A stretch of DNA of 64,000 bases from an uncultured bacterium (GCA_902760645.1 CACWHC010000001.1:124001-188000), one strand, 5' to 3'. Counted from the stretch's first letter, positions 25,584 to 48,697 are shown. Numbers and translations: made by a program. Notes: a model not told the origin generated them from the sequence alone.

Positions 25584-26738
25584 TTATAACCCTGTTTTTT
25601 CATTTAACTTAAAGTAATCAACAAACAAGAAAATTGAAGTTAATTCATTGAAAAAGTTTTCCATTTGTCTTGGATCATCAAGTCTTTTATACAAATTACC
25701 GATTTCAAATAGATTTTTGTTCGTTGAAATTGCAAACATAAGGGTATTACCATAGAAAGAACATTTTGCTTTTTGTGTTCCGAATGTAGTCTGAAGATTT
25801 TGAAATCTCTCCATAAATGCTGTAGTTATAAGATATCTGCCCTGAATCTGGTCGTTTGAATAGGCTCTGTATTTTTTGTTAAACTCAGGGTCTTCAAGTT
25901 TCATTTCGGTAAGAACCATTTTATTTTTATTTTTCCCGAATTTACCGATTACAAAAGCAATAGTAAATACAACTGCCAACAAAACCAAATAAAATATAAA
26001 AAGTCCCGTATCAAATTTCCCGTGTTTAAACAAATCCGGCAATATTTGCAATGAACTTAAACCAAAACCTGCAAGACCGGCAAAAATACCTGCATTATTT
26101 ACACCAGTGTGAACATCTTTTTTGGATGCAATTACGGTAACACCATTTGCATCTTTGTTTGATTTAAATTTAATAACAACACCTTTAAATATTTGAATAA
26201 CCGTTCTATTTTTCCCGCTGCCCGATTCATAATACATATCCGTTTCACAAATTTCAAAATTTACATTATTGTATGAGCCGGAAAATGCATCATAAGAAGC
26301 TCTGCGGTTATAATGCTGAAATAAATAACTCTTATTCATCTCGGTATCGGAAATCAAAGCCGTTTTATTATGCCATGTCACATTCCCGAATAAACCAAGA
26401 ATTTTACCCATACATGTCGTTTTTAATTCATCAATAAATTTATTATTAAAATGAAACGGAAGCCAAATTAAGCAGATTAATGCTCCGGCACCGATAACCA
26501 CCTCCGCTATTGCCAAAAAAGCAAAAGATTGTTCAAAAATCTTGCCGGTAAACATACCTATACCCGTTGATACAACTATAGTCAGAAGAATTGCACAGAT
26601 TAAACATAATGTTACAAGCATATCCTTACGTTTTTTCTCAAACTGACTGAGAATTGGGTATATCGTTGAATGATATAACGTATAAAAATTACGTCTGTAT
26701 TTTGCCATTGTATCGTTTACTGACATCGGTTTGTTCAT
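25584..26738 (-). CDS. DUF3137 family membrane protein (copy 1)
   Basis: 384 residues. The N-terminal part starts with a helix ending in ILSQFEKKRKDML, then a pair of membrane helices near residues 45-65 and 75-105. The soluble domain has the family pattern: YDAFSGSYNNVNFEICE, FKGVVIKF, KLEDPEFNKKY and the strongly conserved YSNDQIQGRYLITTAFMERF near residue 300. Two further membrane helices interrupt the domain near residues 230-275. Function of the family is unknown. It lies 11 bases downstream of a paralogue with which it shares near-identical DNA stretches, and a third copy is at 53397. Confidence 0.85.
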   Translation of the reverse strand: MNKPMSVNDTMAKYRRNFYTLYHSTIYPILSQFEKKRKDMLVTLCLICAILLTIVVSTGIGMFTGKIFEQSFAFLAIAEVVIGAGALICLIWLPFHFNNKFIDELKTTCMGKILGLFGNVTWHNKTALISDTEMNKSYLFQHYNRRASYDAFSGSYNNVNFEICETDMYYESGSGKNRTVIQIFKGVVIKFKSNKDANGVTVIASKKDVHTGVNNAGIFAGLAGFGLSSLQILPDLFKHGKFDTGLFIFYLVLLAVVFTIAFVIGKFGKNKNKMVLTEMKLEDPEFNKKYRAYSNDQIQGRYLITTAFMERFQNLQTTFGTQKAKCSFYGNTLMFAISTNKNLFEIGNLYKRLDDPRQMENFFNELTSIFLFVDYFKLNEKTGL

Positions 26739-26749
26739 AATTTTATCCT

Positions 26750-27901
26750 TTATAATTTTGTATCTTCATCTAATTTAAAATAATCTATCATCAAATATAT
26801 TGATATTAATTCGTCAAAAAATTTATTGAGCTGCTTAGGATTTTTCAGACTCCTGAAAAGTCCGCCGATTTCAAACAAATTTTTCCAAGTTGATATCGCA
26901 AACATTAAACAATTATTATTAAAAGAACATTTTATTTTATTTGTTCCAAATGCTGTCTGAAGATTTTGAAATCTTTCCATAAATGCTGTAGTTATAAGAT
27001 ATCTGCTCTCAATCTGATCGGTTGAATAAGCGACATATTTTTTAGAAAAATTCACATCCTCAAGTTTTATTTCTTTTGCATCGGAGGTAAAAACATCTTT
27101 ACTGAAACGACAATACAGTTTGTCTATTATAAATATAATAACTGCCGGCACAAGCCAGGCAGAAGCCAAACCAAACATCTCTGGCTGAGTTTTTAAAGAT
27201 AATAAAAAACAAAGAACAAAATATACACAAGGTATGTAAGCTATACGAAATTTACGTTTTGTCATAAAATCTCTCTTTGATGAAATAATTGTTTTCCCTT
27301 TAAATTCTTTGTTTATATCAAATTTTATGACAACACCCTTAAATGTACTTATTATTATTGTTCTCCCACCGCCCCCATACTCTGTAAATAAGTGAATTTC
27401 ACTGACTTCAAAATCCGTATCCTTATACTTTCCTTTAAAAGAATCGTAAGTATTCCTCTGAGAAAATACCGGGAACAATTCACTATCTTTTAAGTAATAA
27501 TCCGAAACACATTTTCTGCCATCATACCATTTTATATCACCAAAAACTTTCAATATTTTTTTCATGCATTCTTTTTTTAGAGAGAGTGCAAATTCGTTTT
27601 TAATTATAATTGGGGCAAATACAAAAGCAAATGCCGCAGCAATACCAATAATAAATTCTATACCTGTTATAATATTCCAAAATTGTGAAATCATAGACCG
27701 CTCAGGAGCTCTGCCTGATGAAAAATCACTGTATATGAGATATAATACTATAACAGCAGCCAGACAAATTAGTATCATAGTACGCAAATCCTTTTTGCGT
27801 TCCTGCTCAAAATCCTTCAATATCGGCAATATCGATTCTCTGCATATATTATTGAATTCTTGTTTATACTCTTGTATTTGAGAATTAATTTTTGCAACCA
27901 T
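26750..27901 (-). CDS. DUF3137 family membrane protein (copy 2)
   Basis: 383 residues with the same plan as its downstream neighbour: an N-terminal helix with KDFEQERKKDLR, membrane helices near 45-60 and 80-105, then YDSFKGKYKDTDFEVSE, FKGVVIKF, two more membrane helices, and YSTDQIESRYLITTAFMERF near residue 300. It starts with no ribosome-binding site, seven bases after a TAAAAT box, so its mRNA may be leaderless. It is the first gene of a two-gene unit. The duplication with copy 1 appears recent in the C-terminal third. Function unknown. Confidence 0.85.
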   Translation of the reverse strand: MVAKINSQIQEYKQEFNNICRESILPILKDFEQERKKDLRTMILICLAAVIVLYLIYSDFSSGRAPERSMISQFWNIITGIEFIIGIAAAFAFVFAPIIIKNEFALSLKKECMKKILKVFGDIKWYDGRKCVSDYYLKDSELFPVFSQRNTYDSFKGKYKDTDFEVSEIHLFTEYGGGGRTIIISTFKGVVIKFDINKEFKGKTIISSKRDFMTKRKFRIAYIPCVYFVLCFLLSLKTQPEMFGLASAWLVPAVIIFIIDKLYCRFSKDVFTSDAKEIKLEDVNFSKKYVAYSTDQIESRYLITTAFMERFQNLQTAFGTNKIKCSFNNNCLMFAISTWKNLFEIGGLFRSLKNPKQLNKFFDELISIYLMIDYFKLDEDTKL

Positions 27902-28014: not shown

Positions 28015-31000
28015 TTATTCAATCAGTCCGTCATCGTCAATAGTCAAATCAGGAGCACCGAACATACCTTCGATTTCTTCCAAAATCGCAGACGGTTTTC
28101 TTGCCTGATTTCTTTGTGCAACGGCACGTTTTCTTGCTTCACGTTCTTTTTCTTCGTTTGCATTTGACAAGTGGTGGAAACCGGTACCTGCCGGTATCAA
28201 ACGACCGATAATAACGTTTTCTTTCAGACCTCTCAACATATCCTTCTTACCGTCAACTGCTGCTTCAGTAAGGATTCTTGTTGTTTCCTGGAATGATGCT
28301 GCTGAAATGAAGCTTTCCGTATTCAAAGAAGCCTTTGTAATACCTAACAACATGTATTCGCAAGTTGCAGGAGCGTGTCCGTTCTTTTCAGCTTCAGCAT
28401 TCTCTTTTTCAAATGTCTGAACTTCAACGAGTTCACCCGGAAGAAGTTTTGTATCACCTGCATCAACAACTTTAACTTTCTTAGTCATCTGACGAACGAT
28501 AATTTCAACGTGTTTATCAGCAATTTCTACACCCTGTGAACGGTATACACGCTGAACTTCGTCTACCAAATACTGTTGTGCAGCTTCCGGTCCGCAAAGT
28601 CTGATTACGTCATGCGGATTTAAAGGACCGGAAGTTAAAGGTTGACCTTTAGTGATTTTTTCCTTGTTATTAACAATGATGTTTGCATCAATTGCGTACT
28701 TGATTTCAGTTCTGCCATTATCATTTACTAAGAACAATCTTGGCAAATCTTCTTCTGTATCAATTTCAGCAACACCGTCTTCTTCGGCAAGGATTGCACA
28801 ATCTTTAGGTTTACGGCCTTCAAGAAGTTCTTCTACTCTCGGCAAACCTTGAACGATATCGCCTGTCTTCTGTCTTTCGTAAACAAGTGATGCAATCATA
28901 TCACCACGAAGTACCAATGCACCAAGCTCAACTAACAACATAGTACCCGGACTTACCAAATATGGTCTGCCTTTTCTGATAAGAATTTCGCCTTTGTTTA
29001 CACCGATAACCTGACCTGAAGCTGTTGAAGCTTCACCCTTATCCGTCAAAGGCTGATCAACTTTTACAAAGTCGCCTTTCTTAACTTTAGCTTTACCTGA
29101 TACTTTAACTTTTGTTTCGTAAGTTTCACTTGTCAAAAGTAATCTTCTTGTATCGGTTTCATTATCATGAACAGATGCAACACCGTCATTTACCGATAAT
29201 ACCTGTGTTTTTGCAATCGGAGTTTTAGCCTCAATTACTTCACCGTCTTTAACCAACAATTCGGTTTGAAGTGATGATGCCAATTTTGAATTGCTTTCCT
29301 GCTCACGGCGAACAATTAAGTTTTCCAATACAACAATTCTTAAATTGTTGTTGCTATCCAATTCAACCATACCTTTAAGGTGTGACAGGTATCCTTGCAT
29401 TTGTAAAACCAAACTTGTTCTTGTAATTGTAGAACCGTCCAAATTACGAACTCTTGCACCGTCCTTGTACTGTAATTGAGTAACAGGAACAATGTCAATT
29501 AATTCGTCAGTAGTATTGAATTTTATTGATACTTGTTTCTGATCAACATTCAATACCTGAACAGGTCTTACAAGGATTTGGATAGGCTGATTTGAAATAC
29601 TGTCTTCATCCAAATTCAGGCTTGCATCAAGTTCTTCATCCAAATCATCAATTGCAATATCATCCATTGAAGAATCCATAATTGTAACGATAGAAGTTTC
29701 TTTAACCTTTATACCGTCAGCAATTACAGTACCTTTCTTAACTACTTCACCCTCGTCAACCTTCAACGCACCAACATTTGGCAACGAATGGATTTCGCCG
29801 GGTCTTACGGTAATTTCATGGATTATATCATTATATTCTTTGAACTCAACAATACCGTCAATGTGACAGTAAACGTCTTTTACAACCTCTGTACCAGCTG
29901 TAACGTATGTTCCGTTTTCAACCATCTTCAAAGAAGCATCCTTTGAAATTTGATGAATTTCTTCCGGAATAAATACTACAGAACCCGGTTTTGTAATAAT
30001 TTGGTTTTCATCTACTTCAACATCAACGTATCTGATTTCACCTGAAGAAGTAACAGCACATTCATCATCGATTAATTCGGCAATAATCATACCGTTTTCT
30101 ACAGGAGTATCAACCGGTGCTTTTACAATATATTTTTCACCGGATTTTTTAACTGTCCAAAGCTGTTCCTTCTTTGTTTGTTCAAATGTTGCATTTTCAG
30201 GAGTAAGAGAAGCGATTACGATAGTAATTTCCTTACCTTGTACAATCTTCTTAATCTTTTTGCCTTCAAATTTTACATCTTCAACAACAAGATCTTCACC
30301 GAAACGAACTTCACCACCGTGTTCTGAAATTGTTAACGTTTCAGCTAATTTTTCACCTGATTTAACAGCCTGACCGTCTTTTACAAGAACTTTAGAACCG
30401 CCCGGAAGGTTATAAACGTCACCGCCTAAAACCCAAATAACACCCTGTTTGTTCGTAGTTCTTGAAATATTACCCTGCCTGTCTTTCTTTTCATCAGCAA
30501 CAAAGTCTTCAAAAATAACTTCACCTGACAAGTCAGTAGTAATATCTTTTGTAGCTTTTTCTGTTAAACGAGAGCCATCACCCTGTGAAACAGGTTCATA
30601 AGTAGCAAGTTTAAATCCTTTTTCTACTTTCATTCCATTTTCAAAGAATACTGTTGAACCTGCAGGAATATGATATTTCTCGGTTTTCTTAGCACCTTTA
30701 ATTTCAATATCAGCTTCGTAGTTAGAAATTCTAACAACATCACCGTGACGTGTTCTGAATTCTCTTGTTTTAACGCTTGAAACCACTTCACCGGCAATAG
30801 CAGCTTCAACGGTTTTCATAGCACCTGAACCTTTGAATACACCACCTGTGTGGAATGTTCTCATGGTCAACTGAGTACCCGGTTCACCGATTGACTGAGC
30901 TGCGATAATACCGATAGCTTCACCGATATCAACAAGTTTCTGAGTGGTCATTGCCCAACCATAACATTTTTGACAAATACCGTATTCAAGACCACAAGTC

Positions 31001-31893
31001 AAACCTGAACGAACTTTCAAACCTTCTTCATTCAGTTTGTCCTGATTTAATCTTGAAATCTTTCTGATATCTTTTCTGTCTAATGTTGTACCGTTAGTAA
31101 CGATTACATTACCGCTTTCATCAAGAATATCCTGAGCAACTGTTCTGCCCAATAATCTGTCGATTAACGGAACAATAATAGTATCACCGTCTTTAATCGG
31201 CTTCATATTAATGTACTTGTCAGTATGACAATCATCTGCACGGATAATTACATCCTGTGCAACGTCAACAAGACGTCTTGTTAAGTAACCTGAGTCAGCT
31301 GTTTTCAACGCTGTATCTACAAGACCTTTTCTTGCACCGTAAGATGAAATAATATACTCTGTAACGGATAGACCTTCTTTAAAATTCGCCTTAATCGGTA
31401 AGTCGATGATTTGACCCTGTGCATCAGCCATCAAACCACGCATACCTACCAGCTGTGATACCTGTGATAAGTTACCTCTCGCACCGGAGAACGCCATCAT
31501 ATATACAGGATTTAGTCTGTCAAAGTTATCAACAACGCTTGACGTCAACTTTGCGGTTGTTTCGGACCAAGTGTCGATAACCTTTGTATATCTTTCTACT
31601 TCGGTGATTTCACCTTTTAAATATCTGTGTGTAGATTTTTCAATTTCTTGCTCTGCTTCCTGCAAAAGTTCTTTTTTTACATCAGGTACCTGCAAATCTG
31701 CAATAGAAATTGTTGTACCGGATTTGGTTGCATATTTGTAACCAAGGTTTTTCAAACTGTTTGCCAATTCCGCAGTAGTAGCACCACCAAACTCTAAATA
31801 CATCTGAGATAAAAATTGGTTTAATGCCTTTTTATCCATTTGTTTATTAATGAAGTCCAGTGTCTTCTTTGAATTAGTATAAGTTGTTTCCAT
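28015..31893 (-). CDS. rpoC2: RNA polymerase beta' subunit, C-terminal polypeptide (RpoC2)
   Basis: Carries the C-terminal two thirds of beta'. It starts at the cyanobacterial split point (KKALNQFLSQMYLEFGG … LGYKYATKSGTTI), then has the CGLEYGICQKCYG zinc site, the trigger-loop start GTQLTMRTFHTGGVF near residue 350, and resumes with YERQKTGDIVQGLPRVEELLEGR near residue 1010. Between lies an insertion of roughly 600 residues made of repeated beta-rich units, in the position and style of cyanobacterial SI3. Total 1292 residues. GAGGAAATA precedes the start, 43 bases after rpoC1. This is a native gene split, not a frameshift. Confidence 0.96.
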   Translation of the reverse strand: METTYTNSKKTLDFINKQMDKKALNQFLSQMYLEFGGATTAELANSLKNLGYKYATKSGTTISIADLQVPDVKKELLQEAEQEIEKSTHRYLKGEITEVERYTKVIDTWSETTAKLTSSVVDNFDRLNPVYMMAFSGARGNLSQVSQLVGMRGLMADAQGQIIDLPIKANFKEGLSVTEYIISSYGARKGLVDTALKTADSGYLTRRLVDVAQDVIIRADDCHTDKYINMKPIKDGDTIIVPLIDRLLGRTVAQDILDESGNVIVTNGTTLDRKDIRKISRLNQDKLNEEGLKVRSGLTCGLEYGICQKCYGWAMTTQKLVDIGEAIGIIAAQSIGEPGTQLTMRTFHTGGVFKGSGAMKTVEAAIAGEVVSSVKTREFRTRHGDVVRISNYEADIEIKGAKKTEKYHIPAGSTVFFENGMKVEKGFKLATYEPVSQGDGSRLTEKATKDITTDLSGEVIFEDFVADEKKDRQGNISRTTNKQGVIWVLGGDVYNLPGGSKVLVKDGQAVKSGEKLAETLTISEHGGEVRFGEDLVVEDVKFEGKKIKKIVQGKEITIVIASLTPENATFEQTKKEQLWTVKKSGEKYIVKAPVDTPVENGMIIAELIDDECAVTSSGEIRYVDVEVDENQIITKPGSVVFIPEEIHQISKDASLKMVENGTYVTAGTEVVKDVYCHIDGIVEFKEYNDIIHEITVRPGEIHSLPNVGALKVDEGEVVKKGTVIADGIKVKETSIVTIMDSSMDDIAIDDLDEELDASLNLDEDSISNQPIQILVRPVQVLNVDQKQVSIKFNTTDELIDIVPVTQLQYKDGARVRNLDGSTITRTSLVLQMQGYLSHLKGMVELDSNNNLRIVVLENLIVRREQESNSKLASSLQTELLVKDGEVIEAKTPIAKTQVLSVNDGVASVHDNETDTRRLLLTSETYETKVKVSGKAKVKKGDFVKVDQPLTDKGEASTASGQVIGVNKGEILIRKGRPYLVSPGTMLLVELGALVLRGDMIASLVYERQKTGDIVQGLPRVEELLEGRKPKDCAILAEEDGVAEIDTEEDLPRLFLVNDNGRTEIKYAIDANIIVNNKEKITKGQPLTSGPLNPHDVIRLCGPEAAQQYLVDEVQRVYRSQGVEIADKHVEIIVRQMTKKVKVVDAGDTKLLPGELVEVQTFEKENAEAEKNGHAPATCEYMLLGITKASLNTESFISAASFQETTRILTEAAVDGKKDMLRGLKENVIIGRLIPAGTGFHHLSNANEEKEREARKRAVAQRNQARKPSAILEEIEGMFGAPDLTIDDDGLIE

Positions 31894-31936: not shown

Positions 31937-33655
31937 TTAAGCAGAAAGAGCTATTGCTTTTCTGACTGTTTCGTTAAATATGATTCTACCAACGGTAGTT
32001 TCAATTCTTTCACCTTTTTCATCTCTTACGACAATCTTGTCGTGAAGCTCGATTACACCTACTTCAAGAGCAGAAATCGCATCTTGGAAATTGTAGAAGT
32101 AACCTTTAACAGGCATTTCAGGATTTTTGATGATGGTTAAGTAGTACATACCCAAGACCATATCCTGAGAAGGTGTAATAATAGGTTTACCTGTTGCCGG
32201 AGCCAAAATGTTGTTAGTTGCTAACATTAACATTCTTGCTTCAGTCTGAGCTTCGATTGAAAGCGGAACGTGTACAGCCATCTGGTCACCGTCAAAGTCA
32301 GCGTTGAATGCCGTACATACTAACGGGTGAAGCTGGATAGCACGACCTTCTACCAATTTAGGTTCAAATGCCTGAATACCTAATCTGTGAAGGGTTGGAG
32401 CACGGTTCAGTAATACAGGGTGTCCGTTGATTACTTCTTCAAGGATATCCCATACTACAGCTTCAGAACGTTCAATCTTCTTCTTAGCAGATTTAATATT
32501 CTGAACGTATCCTCTTTCAATTAATTTATTAACAACGAAAGGTTTAAACAATTCGATAGCCATTTCTTTTGGCAAACCGCACTGATTCAAGCTTAATTGC
32601 GGACCTACTACGATAACGGAACGACCTGAATAGTCAACACGTTTACCAAGCAAGTTCTGTCTGAAACGACCTTGTTTACCTTCAATAATATTTGATAATG
32701 ATTTCAACGCTCTGTTGTTAGGACCTACAACCGTTCTGCCGCGTCTGCCGTTATCAATAAGAGCATCAACAGCTTCCTGCAACATACGTTTTTCGTTTCT
32801 TACGATAATTTCAGGAGCACCCATTTCCAAAAGTCTTTGCAAACGATTGTTTCTGTTAATTACACGTCTGTACAAATCATTTAAGTCTGATGTTGCGAAA
32901 CGTCCGCCGTCTAACTGAACCATAGGTCTTAAATCCGGAGGAGTAACAGGAAGTACATCCATAATCATCCAGGTCGGATCGGTTTCTGATGAAATCAATG
33001 AATCTAATAATCTTAATCTCTTGATTAATTTAGATTTTCTCTGAACAGAAGTAACACCCTCATTTAATTCGGTTCTCATTTCTTCTGCCATAACTTTAAT
33101 ATCAAGTTCGCCGAGTAATTCTTTTATAGCTTCCGCACCGATACCTACTTTTAAAGCACTATCTTCGTGTTCTGCCATATAATCTTCATATTCTTCTTCA
33201 CTTAATAACTGAAGTTTCTTAAATTCGGAATCTGCAGGATCGATTACAACATAATTGTTGAAATAAATAACCTGTTCCAAATCTTTCAAAGTCATATCCA
33301 GCAACAAACCAAGGTATGAAGGAATACCTTTCAGAAACCAAATATGAGAAACAGGAGCAGCCAATTTGATGTGTCCCATTCTCTGGCGTCTTACTTTTGA
33401 ATCGGTAACTTCAACACCGCAGCGTTCGCAGATAATACCTTTGTGACGAACTCTTTTATACTTACCGCAATAACATTCCCAATCTTTTGATGGTCCGAAT
33501 ATTCTTTCGCAGAACAAACCATCTCTTTCAGGTTTCAATGTACGGTAGTTGATTGTTTCCGGCTTAGTAACTTCACCGTAGGACCACTTTAAAATCCTTT
33601 CAGGTGACGCAATACTAATTCGTATATAGTCAAAATAATCAATACTTGTTGACAT
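31937..33655 (-). CDS. rpoC1: RNA polymerase beta' subunit, N-terminal polypeptide (RpoC1)
   Basis: 572 residues carrying the N-terminal third of beta' (called gamma in Cyanobacteria). It has the zinc site [20 protein letters not shown] near residue 60, the rudder/lid region [15 protein letters not shown], and the catalytic Mg-binding NADFDGDQM near residue 460. It ends with [17 protein letters not shown] just where cyanobacterial RpoC1 ends. AAAGGAG lies upstream of the ATG. It is the second gene of the rpoB-rpoC1-rpoC2 unit. Confidence 0.97.
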
Positions 33656-37115: not shown

Positions 37116-37532
37116 TAAATCACCTCGTTAAATAAATGGTGTACATACTTTACAAAAATGGTTTTCTAAATTCTAACTTGAGGCTGTTAACCTTTTATCT
37201 CTTAAAACCAACGGAAACTTTTACAATCATTGAGTTTCAGGGTGATAAACTTTTTTATATATTTCGGAGTTTTCTAAAAACGGGCACACTACTCCTACAA
37301 TATTTTACATGTTCTTAAATAATATTCCCAACAAAATTCATAGTCAAGGAATTTTCTCATATATAAATACGAATTGTAAATTAATTGTTACAAAGACAAT
37401 TTATAAAAATTTACAATAGGCGAAAAGTTTTGGTATTAGGGAGTTTTAAGGAAACTTATTGAGCATATAAATCGACTAAATTTTTACAAATATTGTACTG
37501 AACAAATTTATATGTATTCTTATTTACTTTTA
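37116..37532. other. Intergenic region between rpoB and the exosortase gene
   Basis: 417 bases without a gene. It holds the rpoB leader and promoter on the minus strand; the part from 37348 to 37532 is AT-rich and I see no clear terminator, repeat or reading frame in it. Confidence 0.5.
37319..37347 (-). promoter_or_regulatory. Promoter of the rpoB operon
   Basis: On the minus strand TTGACT (37342-37347), a 17-base spacer and TATTAT (37319-37324). The predicted start near 37312 leaves an untranslated leader of about 196 bases before rpoB. Confidence 0.75.
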
Positions 37533-38864
37533 TTAATTGTTTAACTCCTTTACACTACTTATAAGGATGAATTTATCTAATGGATATTTTGAGGAATATT
37601 CAACCATAGTCCAACATTTTGATTTTGTAAATAATGAATAATACACCCTTTTATAGTAATCATCGGTCACCGTCAAGCCATCCGAGAAATAAAAATATAT
37701 ATACCCTTTATCAGTTTCAACAACTCGAAAAAAATATTCCCCTACCGCAATAATTTTACTGCTTATAATTTTTCTCCCGCTGCCTTTTATGCAATTTTCA
37801 GGATTATGATGAGAAGTCCAACTGCAAGATTTAACCATCAACTTTATTATACCGTTATCAGATACCGTTTTTTTCACTTGTGCATTATGCTTATTAAAAA
37901 AATCAATTTCCTGTTCCGTAAAACTTGTACCGTTATCAGCTTTTATGCTGCTGAATACATTGTAGACAGAATTATTAACATTTAAAAATTTAAGGCAAAG
38001 TAATACAAATCCAAGCACCAAAACATAAATATACGAATAGTTTCTGATACTTTTTATTTCATAATCCCGCTTATTATTTAACCTGCTAAAATAATAAAAT
38101 ATCAAAATAATAACAATACCAAAATTAATTAATCCAAGACTTGTATGAACAACAGACATAATATCTTGAGGGATTGCATCCGCACTATTATACATAAGCA
38201 CTAAGACCAAAATTCTCGTAATATTCAATAATATAAAGCAAAATATAGATAACAAAACGACTGATAATGACTTTACGGAAAGTTTTACACGATACATAAA
38301 TCCTATAATTGCGGTAAAAATCATAATAACGAGTATTGTATTATTGCCGCTGCAAGGATAGTCAATATTAACAAAAGTATTTTCAATATTTATAATTGTT
38401 GTTTGCAAAAATTGATTATATCCTAATATAGCCAATACATTACCCGCAATTGAAGCACTTAAAAATCTCAACGGTGTTCCGATAAAAATTTGGGTATATT
38501 CTGCAATTGGTAAACTCAATACCGTCAATAAACTTAACCAATATAATTTTATTTTTGATGAACTTTCTGCAAATAATCCTGTAACAGCAGCTAAACCTAT
38601 CACAAAAATGACTAACCCTAACAGATACGAATGAATACATACAACATTCATTATCTTGCATAAAGATATCGCTAAAATAACGCAGATATCAATACCGGAA
38701 CATTTAAAACTTTTGCCGGCAAATAATATTTTTAGTGCATAAATTACACATAACGAAAATAAAACAAAAAATGGAGTGTAACTATTACCGAAAGTTTCCG
38801 GCAACAGAGGGAACAGTGCAACAAAATATAATAACGGCAAAACAAATTTTAAAACTTTTTGCAT
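37533..38864 (-). CDS. Exosortase with C-terminal EpsI-like domain
   Basis: 443 residues. About nine membrane helices carry the exosortase triad: Cys171 in DYPCSGNN, Arg217 in NITRILV and His240 in SVVHTSLG. Exosortases are transpeptidases that cut PEP-CTERM sorting signals at the inner membrane. After the last helix (about residue 292) a soluble tail has SHHNPENCIKGSG near residue 352, the HxPExC pattern of EpsI, which is fused to exosortases in several lineages. I chose ATG 38864; it overlaps the upstream gene, which encodes a PEP-CTERM protein, by 16 bases. The pair resembles the exosortase/VIT-protein systems (XrtN, XrtO types); subtype not certain. Confidence 0.88.
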   Translation of the reverse strand: MQKVLKFVLPLLYFVALFPLLPETFGNSYTPFFVLFSLCVIYALKILFAGKSFKCSGIDICVILAISLCKIMNVVCIHSYLLGLVIFVIGLAAVTGLFAESSSKIKLYWLSLLTVLSLPIAEYTQIFIGTPLRFLSASIAGNVLAILGYNQFLQTTIINIENTFVNIDYPCSGNNTILVIMIFTAIIGFMYRVKLSVKSLSVVLLSIFCFILLNITRILVLVLMYNSADAIPQDIMSVVHTSLGLINFGIVIILIFYYFSRLNNKRDYEIKSIRNYSYIYVLVLGFVLLCLKFLNVNNSVYNVFSSIKADNGTSFTEQEIDFFNKHNAQVKKTVSDNGIIKLMVKSCSWTSHHNPENCIKGSGRKIISSKIIAVGEYFFRVVETDKGYIYFYFSDGLTVTDDYYKRVYYSLFTKSKCWTMVEYSSKYPLDKFILISSVKELNN

Positions 38865-41506
38865 ATTACATTTCTTTTCATACACATAAACAGTAACAAC
38901 ACAATTCCCATTATTATCATTGCCCATTGTTCAGGCTCAGGAACTGCTTTAATATCTTCAGCTTCTTCATCGCTCTCATTGACTGTTTTATCAATACCGC
39001 TTTGCAAGTTCGCCTCAAACCTGTCTGAAGATTTTTCATTTGCTTTTAATTCTTTTTTTTGCCACTTATCAACAAGGGCAATATATGATGAATAAGACGT
39101 TACTATACCTTGTGATTTTGCAATTTCATGAATTTTATCAAGAATTGAAATATCCGATACATCTTCTTTTGCAATTTTGTTATCTATAATTTTAGAATAA
39201 ATATATTTGGTAAAATCAGCATCATTAATTATTTTGCCATCATTTTTTGATTCTTTTGTCAAAACTATGTTGTTATCGGAATATATACCATCGGAATTTT
39301 GTTTAAAAGAATAGTCATTTACAACATCTTTAATACTATCCGCAATTTTACCATTCGATTCCAACACAGATAATGCCAATTCATTATAATATGGCGGAAT
39401 TTTATTGTCTGCATGAATAATGTATACAGGTGCATTTATCTCATCTGGCAATACTCGTTCAGACTTATCAAAATCATCACTATCAGTCAGCATAATAACG
39501 ATATCATAATTTTTCTCAACTGCTTTTATTGCATCTAATCTTTTGGTTTTTCCTATATTGTATTGTTCTGCATTATCCATATCAATTTTTTTGCTTATAA
39601 GGTCATTAAAGTAATATGCATCAACAGAATTATTAGTTGTTAAGTTTTGGTATTCTTGATTATTACTTAAATAATTTTTCCAAGATATACGATTACTGTA
39701 GGAAGTATCAAGTAATAATGCTATTCGTTTATTTTTAAATTCCTTCTGTTTATTTACATTTTTCAGACAGTACAAATCTTTTTGTATATATGAACATACA
39801 TTATAATTTCCAAAACCGGATTCAACATTTATAACGTTTGCCTTTACATCTTTAACAGAATTTCCGTTAACTTCATATTTATAAGTTGTAAAACTGTTTT
39901 TATACACATTACGTTTTTCATAAATTTCAGGTAATTTAACACTTCCGTCTTCATTAACGGTTGTCAAATAATCATAACTTATTTTTTGGTAATCTTTAGT
40001 TTGAACAGGATAAACTCTCAGTGTATACTGCCTTAAACCGTTTTTCTCCAACAATGCAGGATCATGCCTGTTTACTACTTGTCCTTCGTATGTTTTTCTT
40101 GCAGCACCTTTTGTAGAAATTTCACCCTGATATTCGAGGTCTTTACCTAATTTCAAATCGGTTACAACAGCCCCCTGCGGTAAAGTTAAGTAATAAAATA
40201 CTTCTTTATCCGTAGTATCTTTATTAAAATATTCTTCTGTGATATTAACCCTTACAATAGGGCTGTTTGAACTCGTAAATACTTTCGTAATACGAGATTT
40301 AAGCAATACGGATTTTGCGTCTTTATCCAAAACCGTAGCAGCCGTTTCGCTGCCGAATAAAGTCGAATACAAAGCCTTTCGTATCTTGTTTTTTTGAGCA
40401 GATTGAATATTTTTATCAAACAGTTCCTGATAATCAGCATTAGCTGAAGCAGGATCAAATTGCCCGTTATAAATAAACGGAAATGCTAAAAAATTAAACA
40501 TATTTTGACAAATCTGTCCGAAAGCTTCATTATCATGAATATTATAAACCGATGAATTGGTTTTATCCGCATAATACCTGTATTTTGCAATATACTTGTT
40601 TGTAAGAATATTTTTATAATTTAATTCTTTTCCGATAACAAATTTTTTAGCGATATCGACTTTATCTTCATACGTTAAAGCTTGACGATATTTTGAAATA
40701 TTATCTAAAAATTTTGTTTCGGAAGGCTGAAACGATAATAATGCCATAACCAAAAAATATATGACGGCATAATTTGCTAAAATTCGTTTGTTTGCAATTC
40801 TTTTTGTATATTTAATAAAACTTTTTAGATATATATACGCCGATACAAACGGAGATATAATTGCAACAATAAATCCGCCCAAAAATAGCAACATAAAAAA
40901 CATACTTATAAGTATCGTCGGCAGACCCAATAAAGATTCAAGAGAAAACGATGATACAACTATATCAAACCACCCGAATGAGAAAAAAGACTGCAATAAA
41001 CCAAATAAAAACGGTAATACAAAAAATGATGCTAATATAAGTCCGTATGTTCCGAGAATTACGGTAGTTTCATAACCAAGAACCATAAATATTCCTGATT
41101 TTAGTTTTTTAATATTATAATATTCGACAATTTGAACTCCAACGGCAACAACAACAGATGCCAAAATCATAAAAATAAACGGTGTTATTTCTCTTAATAA
41201 AAATATTCTCAACAAACAAATTAAAATCAACGGCATTTCTATGCCATAAAAAAGTTTAAATACTTTTCTGTAATCTTTATATGTCTTACGCAATACATAT
41301 AAAATAAAAGCAACTACAGGTATAAGCACATTCAAATTAACAATTAACAGAAGCGGAATATTTACTCCTCTTCCCAAATCTAAAAAACCTGCAATAGCCA
41401 GCACACAAGCTAAATTGACATATAATAAATTAAAAACACAAAATAAAAATCCCATTGTTATGTAGTTATTAATAAATTTTTTTACAAATTTAAATATCTT
41501 CTTCAT
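38849..41506 (-). CDS. Polytopic VIT/vWA-like protein with PEP-CTERM signal
   Basis: 885 residues. The first ~260 hold about seven membrane helices. A VIT-like domain follows (ITKVFTSSNSPIVRVNITEE near residue 420 to YTLRVYPVQTKDYQ near 505), then a vWA-like domain with the MIDAS-type LLDTSYS near residue 610 and IVMLTDSDD near 670. The C-terminus is a canonical sorting signal: VPEPEQWAM near residue 855, a hydrophobic helix and a basic KRNVICKK end. PEP-CTERM proteins are normally exported and trimmed; being polytopic is unusual, as in the known family TIGR02921. It precedes and overlaps an exosortase, its likely processing enzyme. AAGGAT precedes ATG 41506; GTG 41509 is also in frame. Confidence 0.85.
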   Translation of the reverse strand: MKKIFKFVKKFINNYITMGFLFCVFNLLYVNLACVLAIAGFLDLGRGVNIPLLLIVNLNVLIPVVAFILYVLRKTYKDYRKVFKLFYGIEMPLILICLLRIFLLREITPFIFMILASVVVAVGVQIVEYYNIKKLKSGIFMVLGYETTVILGTYGLILASFFVLPFLFGLLQSFFSFGWFDIVVSSFSLESLLGLPTILISMFFMLLFLGGFIVAIISPFVSAYIYLKSFIKYTKRIANKRILANYAVIYFLVMALLSFQPSETKFLDNISKYRQALTYEDKVDIAKKFVIGKELNYKNILTNKYIAKYRYYADKTNSSVYNIHDNEAFGQICQNMFNFLAFPFIYNGQFDPASANADYQELFDKNIQSAQKNKIRKALYSTLFGSETAATVLDKDAKSVLLKSRITKVFTSSNSPIVRVNITEEYFNKDTTDKEVFYYLTLPQGAVVTDLKLGKDLEYQGEISTKGAARKTYEGQVVNRHDPALLEKNGLRQYTLRVYPVQTKDYQKISYDYLTTVNEDGSVKLPEIYEKRNVYKNSFTTYKYEVNGNSVKDVKANVINVESGFGNYNVCSYIQKDLYCLKNVNKQKEFKNKRIALLLDTSYSNRISWKNYLSNNQEYQNLTTNNSVDAYYFNDLISKKIDMDNAEQYNIGKTKRLDAIKAVEKNYDIVIMLTDSDDFDKSERVLPDEINAPVYIIHADNKIPPYYNELALSVLESNGKIADSIKDVVNDYSFKQNSDGIYSDNNIVLTKESKNDGKIINDADFTKYIYSKIIDNKIAKEDVSDISILDKIHEIAKSQGIVTSYSSYIALVDKWQKKELKANEKSSDRFEANLQSGIDKTVNESDEEAEDIKAVPEPEQWAMIIMGIVLLLFMCMKRNVICKKF

Positions 41507-41526
41507 CACACAAATCCTTCATTAAT

Positions 41527-41555
41527 ATATTAAAATTACTATATGTTTTTTGCAA
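41527..41555 (-). promoter_or_regulatory. Candidate promoter of the PEP-CTERM/exosortase pair
   Basis: On the minus strand TTGCAA (41550-41555), 17 bases, TAATAT (41527-41532), close to the start codon. The region is AT-rich, so this is tentative. Confidence 0.4.
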
Positions 41556-41702
41556 TACATTTTTCTATATATCTTAATAATATTTCATAAAATTTATTGA
41601 ATTTACCACAGGTTTTACATTTTGTTACAGATAAAAACTTATATAAAAGACCTTAGCATAATTTCATGTTAGAATTATAGTTAGAATAAGAAGGGATATT
41701 AT

Positions 41703-42425
41703 ATGAAAAAAGTTTTATTTTTTGTATTGACAGTATTAATTATAAATAGCGGAAACTATTCTTGCACAATGGCAGAAGAAGCGGAACAAAGTTCAAAAGC
41801 TGCTGCTGTTGAAAAAATGGGGGCAGAAATAAATACCTCAGAAACCAATATATCGGATTCCAAAAACTCTGATGAGTCTAAAGTTTTGGAAGCAGCCGTA
41901 GAATACGACTGGGTAAACATGCTTCAACTACAGCGTGATGAAAAAATAGCAAAATACCATGATATATTGTTTGCGGAAATTAACGGAAAAAGAAGCAGAA
42001 AAGAATTCAGAACTCAGTACAAAGACTTTTTAAAAGACAAAGACTGGAGGACTCATTATCGTCTAATTTCAAGCGGCAGAAAAGAAACCAATGAGGAAAA
42101 TATGTCCGGATTTTTCACAAAGTTCAGAGGACAGGATATTTTATATTCATACGCAATTCAGCCAAAATCTAATTTAAGACGTGTATATTATTATTCGGCA
42201 AAAGGCAGTTTAGCTTACGTTGATGAGATTTCAGACAACTACCCTAACTTCCCGTATCATTCAAGACAGTATCGTTCAAGCGGAAAACTTGCCGGCACAA
42301 TATATTTTGAGACACACGATATTCAATATGTGTATGCCCCTGACGGAAAATTTAAAGGGATATGGCTAAAAGACAGAATGTATGATGCAAAAGGTAAAGA
42401 ACTGATGACCAGAACAAACTGGTAA
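41703..42425 (+). CDS. Exported protein of unknown function, 240 residues
   Basis: A signal peptide (MKKVLFFVLTVLIINSGNYS) is followed by CTMAEEAE; a Cys at 21 could be lipidated but the preceding residues do not make a clean lipobox. The mature part has an acidic Ser/Asn-rich stretch, then a domain of beta strands with repeated YYYSAKGSLAYVDE and YVYAPDGKFKGIWLKD units that recall YD/MORN-like hairpin repeats. AAGGGATA precedes the start. It is divergent from the exosortase pair and shares its intergenic region, so joint regulation is possible. No family recognised. Confidence 0.68.
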   Translation: MKKVLFFVLTVLIINSGNYSCTMAEEAEQSSKAAAVEKMGAEINTSETNISDSKNSDESKVLEAAVEYDWVNMLQLQRDEKIAKYHDILFAEINGKRSRKEFRTQYKDFLKDKDWRTHYRLISSGRKETNEENMSGFFTKFRGQDILYSYAIQPKSNLRRVYYYSAKGSLAYVDEISDNYPNFPYHSRQYRSSGKLAGTIYFETHDIQYVYAPDGKFKGIWLKDRMYDAKGKELMTRTNW

Positions 42426-42504: not shown

Positions 42505-42636
42505 TTAATCACCTACGCACAGCGGAACGAAGTCGTGGTTGCTACGGTAGTCCCTGTACCACGAACTGCTGTCAGAGCTGATGTAGCGTCTCAGTGCCTG
42601 TGAAGCACTAAGCTCCGAACTCGACCAAAAGAAGCC
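42505..42636 (-). other. Candidate diversity-generating-retroelement variable region
   Basis: Codons for the last 43 residues of the pilin-like protein. By hand count 28 of 43 codons end in C or T and 17 end in C, unusual in this AT-rich genome, where neighbouring genes use mainly A or T endings. Adenine-directed mutagenesis of AAC/AAT template codons leaves NNC/NNT codons, so the pattern fits. No reverse transcriptase or template repeat is visible in the window, so the template would have to be elsewhere. Confidence 0.45.
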
Positions 42637-43686
42637 GTTAACTGAAACTCCGGCGGACGAGTCGGATGGAATTGAGTTGCCCGCTACGCATATTACTTCT
42701 CCGTCTGTAAGACGATAGCTTCCAACCGCTCTGTAGTAATCTTCACAGTTCCCTGTCGATGTCGGGTAGGATGAATTTGTAAAACTGTTTATCGTTATAG
42801 ATGTGTATGGCCCTATATCTGTTCTGCCATATCTCGCTCCGGCAATTGTTGCAAGAGTCTGAAGACTTGGCAAATGTAAGCCTAAATCATAACACGCTTT
42901 TGCCGCTCCTGCAAAATAATCACTCCCACCGCTTCTGCAATACTTTATTCCAATCTTATCTTTATACTTTTTACAATCACTTTCGCTTAATGCTGTCGCA
43001 CTTAACTGTTTATACCCAAATAACGAATTTAATGTTCTTACATCTGTTCCTACTTTGTTTGGGGCATGACTGCCATTTATATCAAATATTGCACTTATAC
43101 AGTTTGTTGTTGCATTTGTTTCGGGTTTATAGTCTACCATTGACCACGCATAAGTCTTTGCTGAATCCATGGGGGTACATTTCGGACTGTAAGTCAGTAT
43201 CATTGGTACTCCATCACCCGTTACTATTCCGACTGTCTTGGTACTCGCTGTGCCTAAACCTAATGCTTTTATTGCACTTCCGGTAGTTAACGATGATACA
43301 CTTACTGTTCCGTCTGCCGTATTTATTGTACTCGTAGGCCAACACCCTGATATATTATCACTATTACATACTTTTGCTATCTTAAAATGATTCTTTAACT
43401 CGTTTACAAATTCTTCTGTTGCCGTCTGTTCTGTTCCGTACCTCCCGATTAAGTCTAACGATTTCATTTTATCTGTTGCCTGAGTAAGTTTATATTTTAT
43501 CGTTCTTACCTGCTCGTTTCTTACTCGTTCCTGTATATTTGCAAGAACCGTAGGTAACGTCATCGCCGCAACAACTCCAATAATACCAAGGGTTATTAGA
43601 ACTTCCGCCAGGGTAAAGGCAACTTTCCTACCGCTCCTGGCGGTAGAGGGCAAATCCCAGACACCTAAATCTACATTCCGATTCAT
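42505..43686 (-). CDS. Prepilin-like protein with a C-type-lectin-like, variable-region-type C-terminus
   Basis: 393 residues. The N-terminus is a type IV prepilin leader and helix: after a 23-residue basic leader ending in RSGRKVA, the stretch FTLAEVLITLGIIGVVAA gives the methylated Phe and the conserved Glu at +5. The middle is a beta-rich globular domain with several cysteines. The last ~140 residues look like a C-type-lectin/sulfatase-modifying fold and finish with GFFWSSSE … FVPLCVGD, as in retroelement-diversified proteins. It should be processed by PilD and displayed on the cell surface as a pilus or pseudopilus subunit. GGAGG lies upstream. The C-terminal codon usage differs sharply from the rest of the window. 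Confidence 0.85.
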   Translation of the reverse strand: MNRNVDLGVWDLPSTARSGRKVAFTLAEVLITLGIIGVVAAMTLPTVLANIQERVRNEQVRTIKYKLTQATDKMKSLDLIGRYGTEQTATEEFVNELKNHFKIAKVCNSDNISGCWPTSTINTADGTVSVSSLTTGSAIKALGLGTASTKTVGIVTGDGVPMILTYSPKCTPMDSAKTYAWSMVDYKPETNATTNCISAIFDINGSHAPNKVGTDVRTLNSLFGYKQLSATALSESDCKKYKDKIGIKYCRSGGSDYFAGAAKACYDLGLHLPSLQTLATIAGARYGRTDIGPYTSITINSFTNSSYPTSTGNCEDYYRAVGSYRLTDGEVICVAGNSIPSDSSAGVSVNGFFWSSSELSASQALRRYISSDSSSWYRDYRSNHDFVPLCVGD

Positions 43687-43710
43687 TTATCCTCCGAAAA
43701 ACTTAAATTT

Positions 43711-43731
43711 TTAGTATATATTATATACTAA
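43711..43731. promoter_or_regulatory. 21-base perfect palindrome upstream of the pilin gene
   Basis: TTAGTATATA, a central T, and its exact reverse complement. It lies 25 bases before the pilin start codon, between its promoter and ribosome-binding site, and may be an operator or a 5' untranslated hairpin. Confidence 0.6.
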
Positions 43732-43766
43732 TAAAATACCAAATTAATCCATGTAATACTACTTAT

Positions 43767-43795
43767 ATTTTAAGGTATTTTATGCCTTATGTCAA
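43767..43795 (-). promoter_or_regulatory. Pilin promoter with operator-like palindrome in the spacer
   Basis: On the minus strand a perfect TTGACA (43790-43795), 17 bases and TAAAAT (43767-43772). TAAGGCAT and ATACCTTA form an interrupted palindrome (one mismatch) at 43771-43789, exactly filling the spacer, where a repressor would block RNA polymerase. Confidence 0.6.
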
Positions 43796-43854
43796 GTCAT
43801 TATACTTAGTTTACATGTTATAACTATTTACTACTATTAACATTAGGAGTAATT

Positions 43855-44181
43855 ATGAAAGACAAAATCTGTCAAATATTGGGAAATAACATAAAGAAAA
43901 TCAGGAAGTCAAAAAAAATAACTCAAAACGAACTTGCCGAAAAAATCGGGATTGAAGTTAAATCACTGAGCCTTGTAGAAACAGGAAAAGGCTTTATGTC
44001 ATCCAAAACCCTCGAAAAACTTTCTTTTATTCTTAATACACCCGTAAAAAATTTTTTTGAAGAACCCAACAGCAATGACTCCGATACCATATATCGTGAA
44101 ATAGTTGATAATTTAAACATAATCAAAAGTGATTCTCTTAAATTGAATACCGTTAATCTTGTTATTAAAAGTCTTTTGTAA
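43855..44181 (+). CDS. XRE-family transcriptional regulator
   Basis: 108 residues with an N-terminal helix-turn-helix of the XRE/Cro type: IRKSKKITQNELAEKIGIEVKSLSLVETG at residues about 16-45, with the recognition helix IEVKSLSLVE. The C-terminal ~40 residues are a helical tail that may dimerise. GGAGTAATT precedes the start. It is divergent from the pilin-like gene, and both the palindrome in the pilin promoter and the 21-base palindrome lie between them, so it is a natural candidate repressor of that gene. No ligand-binding domain is present. Confidence 0.85.
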   Translation: MKDKICQILGNNIKKIRKSKKITQNELAEKIGIEVKSLSLVETGKGFMSSKTLEKLSFILNTPVKNFFEEPNSNDSDTIYREIVDNLNIIKSDSLKLNTVNLVIKSLL

Positions 44182-46362: not shown

Positions 46363-46719
46363 ATGAAGCATGAAGATTTAGATGTATGGAAAAAAGGAAT
46401 AGATATTGTCACAGAAATTTACAAAATTACTGCGGCATTTCCTCCTGAAGAAATCTACGGCATCACAAATCAAATACGACGTGCTGCTGTATCTATCCCC
46501 TCAAACATAGCAGAAGGTTGTGCGAGATTTTCTAATAAAGAAACATTAAAATTCATTAGTGTAGCAGTTGGTTCTGTTACTGAATTACAAACACAATTCA
46601 TTATAGCTCAAAATCTGGATTATATAAGTGATAATTCTGAAATTTTAAATAAATTGGAAGAAATAAAAAAAATGTTAATTGGTTTATCAAAATATTTGAA
46701 AGATAAAAATAAGACATAA
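46363..46719 (+). CDS. Four-helix-bundle protein (S23/intervening-sequence type)
   Basis: 118 residues with the family hallmarks: LDVWKKGIDIVTEIYKIT at the N-terminus, QIRRAAVSIPSNIAEGCAR near residue 42 and a helical C-terminus. Family members are found encoded in 23S rRNA intervening sequences and in diversity-generating retroelements (Avd), where they bind nucleic acid or the reverse transcriptase. The gene sits between a heptose gene and lpxD, where it interrupts an otherwise envelope-only cluster, and is bracketed by GAACAGT repeats in inverted orientation. AAGGAATT precedes the start. A mobile or inserted origin is likely; role here unknown. Confidence 0.85.
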   Translation: MKHEDLDVWKKGIDIVTEIYKITAAFPPEEIYGITNQIRRAAVSIPSNIAEGCARFSNKETLKFISVAVGSVTELQTQFIIAQNLDYISDNSEILNKLEEIKKMLIGLSKYLKDKNKT

Positions 46720-46774: not shown

Positions 46775-47869
46775 ATGAAATCATTCACTATTGAAGAAAT
46801 TACACAGATAGTTGGCGGTATGTTGACAAAGGTTCAGGATGCAAAGATTGAACGTATTGCACCTCCGGTTCTGGCTGATGAAAATACTTTGGCTTTGGCT
46901 TTGGGAGAAGAAGAAATCGCAAATCTCGCAAACTCAAAAGCAAAAGCTGCACTTGTACCTCTTGGAGTACAAATTGACGGACTGACTACAATTGAAGTTG
47001 AAAGACCACGTCTTGCAATGATGAAATTAATCACACTATTCTATAATCCGCCAAGAATTAATGACGGAATACATCCGACTGCTGTTGTCGACCCGAGTGC
47101 AAAACTTGGTGAAAACGTTAAAATCGGACCTAATGTTGTAATTTCTCACGATGCAGTGATTGGTGATAATACACAAATTATGGCAAACAGCTACATCGGC
47201 GGAGAAGCTAAAATTGGTAAAAATTGTTTCTTCCATCCGGGAGTAAATATAGGTGACAGAGTTAAAGTAGGAAATGATGTAATCCTTCACCACGGAGTAT
47301 CTCTTGGTGCTGACGGCTTCAGTTTTGTAACGGAAAACCCTGATAATATTGAACACGCAAGAAAAGAAGGATCAATCAGCGGCGAAGATGCTGCAAAACA
47401 CGTTATCTTTAAAATCCCTTCAATCGGAAGTGTTGTAATCGGTAACAACGTTGAAATCGGAGCAAACACTACAATAGACAGAGGTACAATTGAAAATACG
47501 GTTATTGGCGATAATACAAAAATTGATGACCTTGTAATGATTGGACATAATTGCCGTGTAGGTAAAGGTTGTCTGATTGTTTCTCAGGTAGGTATTGCGG
47601 GAAGCTGTGTAATCGGTGACAGAGTAGTTATTGCAGGTCAGGCAGGTTTGGCAGACCATATTGAAATAGGTTCTGATACAATTATTACCGCTAAAGCAGG
47701 GGTTACAAAATCATTCCCTGAAAAATCAATTATCGTAGGTATTCCTGCAGTTCCGAGAAAAGATTTTATTAAACAGTTAAAAACTATGAAAGATGCTCAG
47801 GAAATTTTTGCAAAATTCAAAAAGTATGAACCTTTGTTCAAAGAATTTGAAGAAAATGTTTCTAAATAA
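46775..47869 (+). CDS. lpxD: UDP-3-O-acylglucosamine N-acyltransferase
   Basis: Third step of lipid A synthesis. The 364 residues have the N-terminal uridine-binding domain ending near ITLFYNPPR, then a left-handed beta-helix of hexapeptide repeats ([16 protein letters not shown] … [21 protein letters not shown]) with the catalytic His in [11 protein letters not shown] near residue 250, and a C-terminal helix. AAGGAG lies upstream. It starts a cluster with lpxC and fabZ. Confidence 0.95.
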
Positions 47870-47884
47870 AGGCAGTAAAAAATA

Positions 47885-48697
47885 ATGATTACACTAAAAC
47901 AAGAAACTCAAATAACAGGTAACGGTTTAATGAAAAATAAACCGTGTACGGTTAAATTTTTCCCTTCCGAGGCCGGTAAAATCAGATATTTTGTCGGAGG
48001 GGAGGAATTTGAAGCGAATACTGATAATGTGCTATCCACCGATCATTGCGTGGTACTCGGCAAAAACAAAGCTCAGGCAATGTTAACCGAACATTTAACT
48101 GCGGCTTTGGCATTTTGCGGTATAGATTCTTTGGATATTTGTCTTGATGAAATGGAAGTTCCGGCATTAGACGGCAGTTCAAAACAATGGGTTGAATTGT
48201 TTAAAGATGCAGGAATTAATAAGCCGCTATTGTACAAACCACAAAAGTATACCGTGTCCGAACCTGTTTATTACTTAAACGGTAAAACGAGTCTGGTTAT
48301 ACTTCCCGCAGAAGATTTGTTCATATCTTATGCTGTAAATTATGACCATAAGGATTTAAGACAATGTTTTGTAAACTATAATCCTAAAAATTCACAGGAA
48401 ATTATTGAAGCGAGAACCTTTGGATTCTATAAGGATTTAAGAACGTTCCAGATGCTGGGATTTGCGAAAGGTGTAACCATTGATAATACCGTAGGTTTGA
48501 CAGATGAAGGATATACAACGGAATTGCGTTCGGACAAAGAACCTGTTAAACACAAAATGCTTGATTTAATAGGGGACTTGTATCTGACCGGAATAAATCC
48601 GCTTAACCTTAAATGCCAAATCTTGGCAAAGGAAGCGGGTCATGCAGTACACATTAAAGTCGCAAAAATATTAAAAGATAAAATTACAGAATGTTAA
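47885..48697 (+). CDS. lpxC: UDP-3-O-acyl-N-acetylglucosamine deacetylase
   Basis: Zinc enzyme that commits UDP-GlcNAc derivatives to lipid A. The 270 residues show VLGKNKAQAMLTEHLTAAL (first zinc His near residue 71) and KHKMLDLIGDLYL (second zinc His and Asp near residue 222). It is slightly shorter than usual but both halves are present. It lies 15 bases after lpxD and 17 bases before fabZ, and has no fused FabZ domain, unlike the LpxC-FabZ fusions of Bacteroidetes. Confidence 0.94.
   Translation: MITLKQETQITGNGLMKNKPCTVKFFPSEAGKIRYFVGGEEFEANTDNVLSTDHCVVLGKNKAQAMLTEHLTAALAFCGIDSLDICLDEMEVPALDGSSKQWVELFKDAGINKPLLYKPQKYTVSEPVYYLNGKTSLVILPAEDLFISYAVNYDHKDLRQCFVNYNPKNSQEIIEARTFGFYKDLRTFQMLGFAKGVTIDNTVGLTDEGYTTELRSDKEPVKHKMLDLIGDLYLTGINPLNLKCQILAKEAGHAVHIKVAKILKDKITEC

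Follow-up and report, generated by a model that had tools for sequence, protein, structure and literature searches.

A pair of overlapping genes on the minus strand of a 64,000-nucleotide stretch of DNA from an uncultured bacterium (GCA_902760645.1, CACWHC010000001.1:124001-188000; below, the window, with positions counted from its first letter) probably constitutes a self-contained protein-sorting unit of the exosortase-O type: one gene encodes an exosortase, the other a polytopic membrane protein with a PEP-CTERM tail which this enzyme would cut, and the two move between genomes as a block. The pairing of the enzyme with a single substrate had been proposed in an earlier, sequence-only reading of the window; that species exchange the two genes together was missed there and was found in the present analysis.

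The enzyme and its partner

The partner gene (38849..41506) comes first; it starts with an ATG at 41506, with GAAGGA upstream, its stop codon ends at 38849, and the product has 885 residues. The exosortase gene (37533..38864) follows, starts with an ATG at 38864 and encodes 443 residues, so that, as the sequence-only reading had it, the partner's stop and the exosortase's start overlap by 16 bases (38849..38864, read from the sequence); an in-frame ATG at 38927 is an alternative start that would yield 464 residues. Both reading frames are intact, and rpoB lies immediately downstream of the pair, in the same orientation. The ratio of nonsynonymous to synonymous divergence (dN/dS) is 0.18 and 0.32 for the two genes when the window is compared with genome G467, a different species, and about 0.17 inside the genus g20. 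Since these values are well below 1, the pair consists of real genes under purifying selection.

The exosortase passes the cut-offs of PF09721 (67.5 bits, cut-off 25.7) and TIGR04178 (36.6 bits, cut-off 23). When exosortase subfamily models were searched, as the earlier reading had suggested, by far the best one was TIGR04489, exosortase O (XrtO), with an E-value of 2e-42; the score of 145 bits is, however, below the curated cut-off of 250, and therefore we name the enzyme XrtO-like rather than XrtO. Two other genomes of the same bacterial order, G003 and G022, score 248.8 on this model, and the enzyme groups with other members of the order in a separate clade. The three catalytic residues that had been recognized before, namely Cys171 in the motif PCSG (codon at 38352..38354), Arg217 (38214..38216) and His240 (38145..38147), are invariant in 14 relatives. 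The C-terminal part (residues ~316-425, 37590..37919) is an EpsI/DUF3485-like tail with the signature H353-x-P-x-x-C358. PF11984 (DUF3485) matches 6 of the 14 relatives (best E-value 1e-4) and not the window protein itself, and H353, P355 and C358 are invariant in all 14; between the window and G467 the tail is better conserved than the core (68% versus 54% identity). The EpsI-like tail claimed earlier is thus supported, although this tail is typical of the XrtO group, and such fusions have been known since 2006, when Haft et al. described exosortase-EpsI fusions and one polytopic PEP-CTERM family (PMC1569441). Among solved structures, no match was found for the exosortase.

Three relatives (G178, G525 and G505; loci L050, L097 and L098) have XrtO-like enzymes of only 333-343 residues which are devoid of the first membrane helices and retain the triad and the EpsI-like tail; these are possible minimal exosortases. 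A second kind of exosortase, of ~276-312 residues and much nearer to PF09721, is found in other families of the window's order (G024, G002, G022, G030, G028 and G010; loci L009-L014), and G022 encodes it in addition to an XrtO-type pair, at another place in the genome.

The partner protein passes the curated model TIGR02921 (PEP_integral) with 293.6 bits against a cut-off of 200, the match extending over residues 17-877 of 885 and positions 8-920 of the 922 of the model. Its N-terminal membrane domain (residues 15-261, 40724..41464) has some 7-8 hydrophobic segments, as judged from hydropathy and alignment. In one such segment, Glu90-x-Pro92 is invariant and Arg100 nearly invariant in TIGR02921, a pattern which suggests that the membrane domain may have an activity of its own. 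The VIT domain (residues 409-509, 39980..40282) is recognized by PF08487 with an E-value of 2e-14 (54 bits, cut-off 26.5) and was found in all 22 partner relatives. The vWA-like domain (residues ~591-735, 39302..39736) is called from a weak profile match to VWA2 of PDB 5a8j (E-value 0.001); the metal-ion-dependent adhesion site (MIDAS) motif DTSYS within it (residues 600-604, 39695..39709) has D600, S602 and S604 invariant in 22 relatives, and T654 and D675 complete the usual MIDAS set, with T/S and D conserved at these sites. The protein terminates in the sequence VPEPEQWAMIIMGIVLLLFMCMKRN, that is, by reading, a PEP motif (VPEPEQW), a hydrophobic helix and a basic end (KR), which together make up a PEP-CTERM tail (residues 854-885, 38852..38947). 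Because this tail scores 14.5 bits with PF07589, under the cut-off of 20.7, we assign it from its anatomy and from the extent of the TIGR02921 match, which reaches the model's end. The observation of the sequence-only reading, an exosortase gene overlapping that of a PEP-CTERM membrane protein, is thereby confirmed. Between the window and G467, identity is highest in the VIT domain of the partner, at 86%, followed by 81% for the tail, 73% for the C-terminal hybrid strand and 70% for the vWA region; it falls to 57% in the membrane domain and to 45% in the stretch that links VIT and vWA, the most variable parts.

Pairing, tail motif and exchange as a block

The distribution of the pair was followed in samples of 192 genomes of the window's order, 383 of its family and 386 of its phylum. 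In the order, TIGR02921 is found in 5 genomes, all of them among the only 10 that have any exosortase. In the family, it is found in 9 genomes of four genera (10 at an E-value of 0.001, the tenth, G553, being a VIT match only), and in all nine an XrtO-like gene is directly downstream, running off the contig in G536; the two-gene arrangement, on whose conservation the earlier reading had staked its proposal, is thus kept throughout. These nine loci are spread over four or more different genomic contexts, across which no further neighbour is shared. In the phylum, TIGR02921 is over the cut-off in 25 genomes, and an XrtO-type enzyme adjoins it in all 15 genomes that encode such an enzyme, in one case across a contig break; XrtO was never seen without TIGR02921. 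The gene order differs: the enzyme comes first in Cyanobacteriia and the substrate first in the window's order, so that adjacency has outlived the change of order. No relatives were found in viral contigs, and among plasmids, one Nostoc plasmid carries TIGR02921. Being rare within this lineage and scattered in its occurrence, the pair is not a lineage trait.

The tail of the partner co-varies with the enzyme. The PEPxxW motif is present in 18 of 21 XrtO-paired proteins versus 1 of 11 unpaired ones (for W, Fisher p 4e-5, which exaggerates the significance since the proteins are related), and E, A, Q or K follows PEP in 20 of 21 versus 1 of 11. The unpaired tails resemble ordinary cyanobacterial PEP-CTERM tails. 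Such a pattern is to be expected if the tail is read by XrtO and if proteins without XrtO have become adapted to a general cyanoexosortase. It bears upon a different reading of the pair, according to which the partner would regulate the exosortase, form its membrane subunit or be a receptor coupled to the enzyme, with the PEP-CTERM-like tail docking uncut. Such a role could be suspected from the polytopic nature of the partner, unlike nearly all PEP-CTERM proteins (PMC1569441), from the overlap of the genes and from the conservation of three residues in the membrane domain, E90 and P92 being invariant and R100 nearly so. We nevertheless hold it to be rather unlikely: the enzyme has kept all its catalytic residues although no other substrate was found, and the TIGR02921 proteins that coexist only with other exosortases have just the type of tail that a substrate should have.

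Comparison with G103, which belongs to another species of the same genus, revealed the exchange. By pairwise alignment, a tract covering both genes (37421..41644, breakpoints near 37420 and 41645) is 99.8% identical, with ~9 differences in 4.2 kb; in the 62 kb compared, where the median identity is 86% and the flanks range from 84 to 94%, no other tract of more than 500 bases exceeds 98%, and both breakpoints are just outside the two genes. Correspondingly, the synonymous divergence (dS) is 0.000 and 0.006 in the pair as compared to 0.3-1.2 in most flanking genes. In the genus g20 (G178/G525), the pair has dS of 0.41 and 0.40 versus 1.0-3.3 in flanking genes, and in a cyanobacterial genus (G217/G251) 0.53 and 0.69 versus 0.23-0.39 in the surroundings, which makes the pair older there. 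In all three comparisons the two genes are roughly alike in divergence and depart from the genes around them, from which we conclude that the pair was replaced or acquired as a unit. Between the window and the third species, G467, the two proteins of the pair differ much more than RpoB or Asd do, and the trees of the two genes have well-supported groupings in common. At the borders of the tract, a search for inverted or direct repeats or mobile-element ends gave only AT-rich chance matches. We infer that the pair spreads between related species by recombination in flanking sequence, as one would anticipate for an optional surface trait.

The genomes are apparently metagenome assemblies, and short reads hardly span a near-identical tract of 4.2 kb, so the near-identity in two species could in principle stem from misassembly or cross-contamination. 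This explanation is improbable, however, considering that the contigs are long (261 and 62 kb), that the flanks are diverged on both sides, that ~9 real differences are located inside the tract, and that two other genus pairs are discordant as well, one of them in Cyanobacteriia and in the opposite direction. The near-identity of the copies in G536 and G467, which belong to different genera, was set aside as a possible binning error, the G536 contig being only 4.6 kb long. Foreign base composition was likewise dropped as a sign of origin: the G+C content of 29% is low, yet other window genes are near that value.

The 1.96-Mb genome, which is 99.8% complete, encodes a single exosortase. An ordinary general enzyme, serving several substrates whose tails were missed, would be conceivable given the insensitivity of profile searches: the Pfam PEP-CTERM model, PF07589, is too short for a genome search and missed even the known tail of the partner. 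For this reason, DNA motif patterns were used instead, and of the 3 sites encoding PEPxxW and the 15 encoding VPEP, other tail motifs not being covered, none revealed a second PEP-CTERM protein; the partner's site alone is in frame, close to a C-terminus and succeeded by a hydrophobic helix with basic residues after it. Both motif searches thus left the partner as the sole candidate, and the enzyme travels with the partner gene only, which leaves little room for a general exosortase. In this organism, then, the enzyme has no other detectable target, and the many other PEP-CTERM proteins that would have spoken against a dedicated system were not found. The interpretation given earlier is thus supported in part: what stands of the proposed one-target system is an XrtO-like enzyme paired with a TIGR02921 protein, in a genome where a single exosortase and a single PEP-CTERM target are detectable, whereas full XrtO membership does not stand, as the TIGR04489 cut-off is missed. 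The surface or periplasmic assembly factor suggested in the same reading would be no more than a possible role of the partner. That the pair could be a decaying, functionless leftover of a cyanobacterial system, as its patchiness (9/383 family genomes) and the shortened enzymes in genera g20 and g17 might hint, is most improbable in view of the open frames, the retained catalytic residues, the dN/dS of 0.17-0.32 and the recent spread.

Proposed mechanism and its weak points

Under the two-gene sorting scheme that we favour, the N-terminal membrane helices would insert the partner, its stalk, VIT and vWA regions would reside on the periplasmic side, and the C-terminal PEP-CTERM helix would hold its other end. 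The exosortase would recognize the PEPxxW tail, cut beside this motif with Cys171, Arg217 and His240, and pass the new C-terminus of the partner to a lipid or glycan acceptor, a transfer that the fused EpsI-like tail perhaps aids. This would yield a metal-dependent adhesion-type head that is anchored in the envelope at both ends.

Several observations weigh against this scheme. In correction of the sequence-only reading, the pairing is not fixed one-to-one in the TIGR02921 family: ten cyanobacterial genomes keep TIGR02921 without XrtO, each with at least one other exosortase, so that XrtO is not strictly required for the TIGR02921 protein; the presence of the other exosortase in all ten is itself weak evidence, exosortases being common in Cyanobacteriia. 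Two proteins accompanied by XrtO-like enzymes, in G438 and G505, have tails without W (PEPKEQ and PEPQEY), and the tail in G346 is PEPPLV. Polytopic substrates are uncommon, which raises the question of why this one would have to be sorted at its C-terminus. Finally, structure prediction for both proteins, from two near-identical sequences, gave unusable models, with predicted local distance difference test (pLDDT) scores of 37 and 32.

A bolder version appears very doubtful to us, namely that the partner is a counterpart of the inter-alpha-inhibitor heavy chains, its C-terminus being cut and covalently joined to a surface glycan or lipid by a dedicated exosortase, with the whole acting as a swappable module under host or phage selection. 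The C-termini of the animal VIT/vWA heavy chains are ester-bonded to chondroitin sulfate (PMC7170535), and the parallel, attachment of a VIT/vWA protein through its C-terminal end, may be considered suggestive.

Genomic surroundings, related systems and implications

No polysaccharide-export family was detected among the window proteins scanned, in line with the earlier reading, and the nearest glycosyltransferases are ~31 kb away on one side and ~17 kb on the other. The window includes lpxC (47885-48697) and an lpxD-like gene (46775-47869), so the organism, having lipid A genes, is likely to possess an outer membrane. Among these genes is a four-helix protein of the 23S rRNA-intervening-sequence type (46363-46719; PF05635, weakly also bAvd), whose homologue in G103 is on the opposite side of the lpxD-like gene, such that it seems mobile. 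The divergently transcribed gene at 41703-42425, for a fast-evolving (dS 0.9 versus G103), secreted-type protein of 240 residues with no Pfam family, is conserved as a neighbour of the pair in no context other than that of rpoB; it was rejected as a third component, being missing beside the pair in other contexts and located outside the exchanged tract. Between it and asd, a prepilin-like reading frame (42% G+C versus 34% for the window) and a helix-turn-helix gene (42505-44181) are absent from this place in G103 and G467 and look like a strain-specific insertion. The window also contains three DUF3137 proteins (25584-26738, 26750-27901 and 53397-54362), and rpoC is split in two genes (28015-31893 and 31937-33655) with the break inside PF04983. 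A split rpoC is a trait of Cyanobacteria, and its presence is consistent with the non-photosynthetic cyanobacterial lineage supposed in the earlier reading.

Both protein families have curated models, TIGR02921 and TIGR04489, which NCBI follows in naming such proteins. The window partner matches TIGR02921 over its full length, from the membrane N-terminus through VIT and the vWA-like region to the PEP-CTERM tail, but is only ~24-27% identical to cyanobacterial members and is encoded upstream of the enzyme, theirs being downstream. The enzyme shares with XrtO the length plan with the EpsI-like tail, the triad and the adjacency to TIGR02921, and differs in its score, its separate clade and the loss of the N-terminal helices in some family relatives. 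The XrtN system with its VIT target (TIGR04476/TIGR04477), which occurs in Bacteroidota, shows second-tier similarity, in the enzyme and in the VIT region; the target match covers the VIT region only, and the scores are far below the cut-offs. Two further VIT-containing targets of sorting enzymes, TIGR03788 (a marine proteobacterial sortase target) and TIGR04286 (the MSEP-CTERM target of XrtK), match weakly in 20 and 3, respectively, of the 22 partner relatives, score far below cut-off and belong with other enzymes or tails. Cyanoexosortase B of Nostoc punctiforme, from the same enzyme superfamily, is needed for motility and biofilm formation through PEP-CTERM proteins, but it is a single enzyme in a genome encoding ~35 such proteins and is not of the XrtO type (PMC12188702).

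In the open-access literature searched, no relevant paper mentions XrtO or TIGR02921 by name, the 2012 paper on dedicated systems (PMC3256604) being outside the coverage, and none combines exosortases with Gastranaerophilales. The family is thus a known one, the window holds a variant of it for which no experimental study was found, and the exchange of the pair as a unit is new, unreported in the papers that could be searched.

Taken together, the block transfer shows that the two genes suffice as a unit that can move, and it suggests that their role at the surface of gut bacterial cells is optional and under selection. Many genomes with exosortases encode dozens of targets; one enzyme and one detectable target, with no other exosortase in a 2-Mb genome, come near to the simplest setting for a study of cleavage and of the acceptor, and the co-variation of PEPxxW with the enzyme names the residues to mutate.

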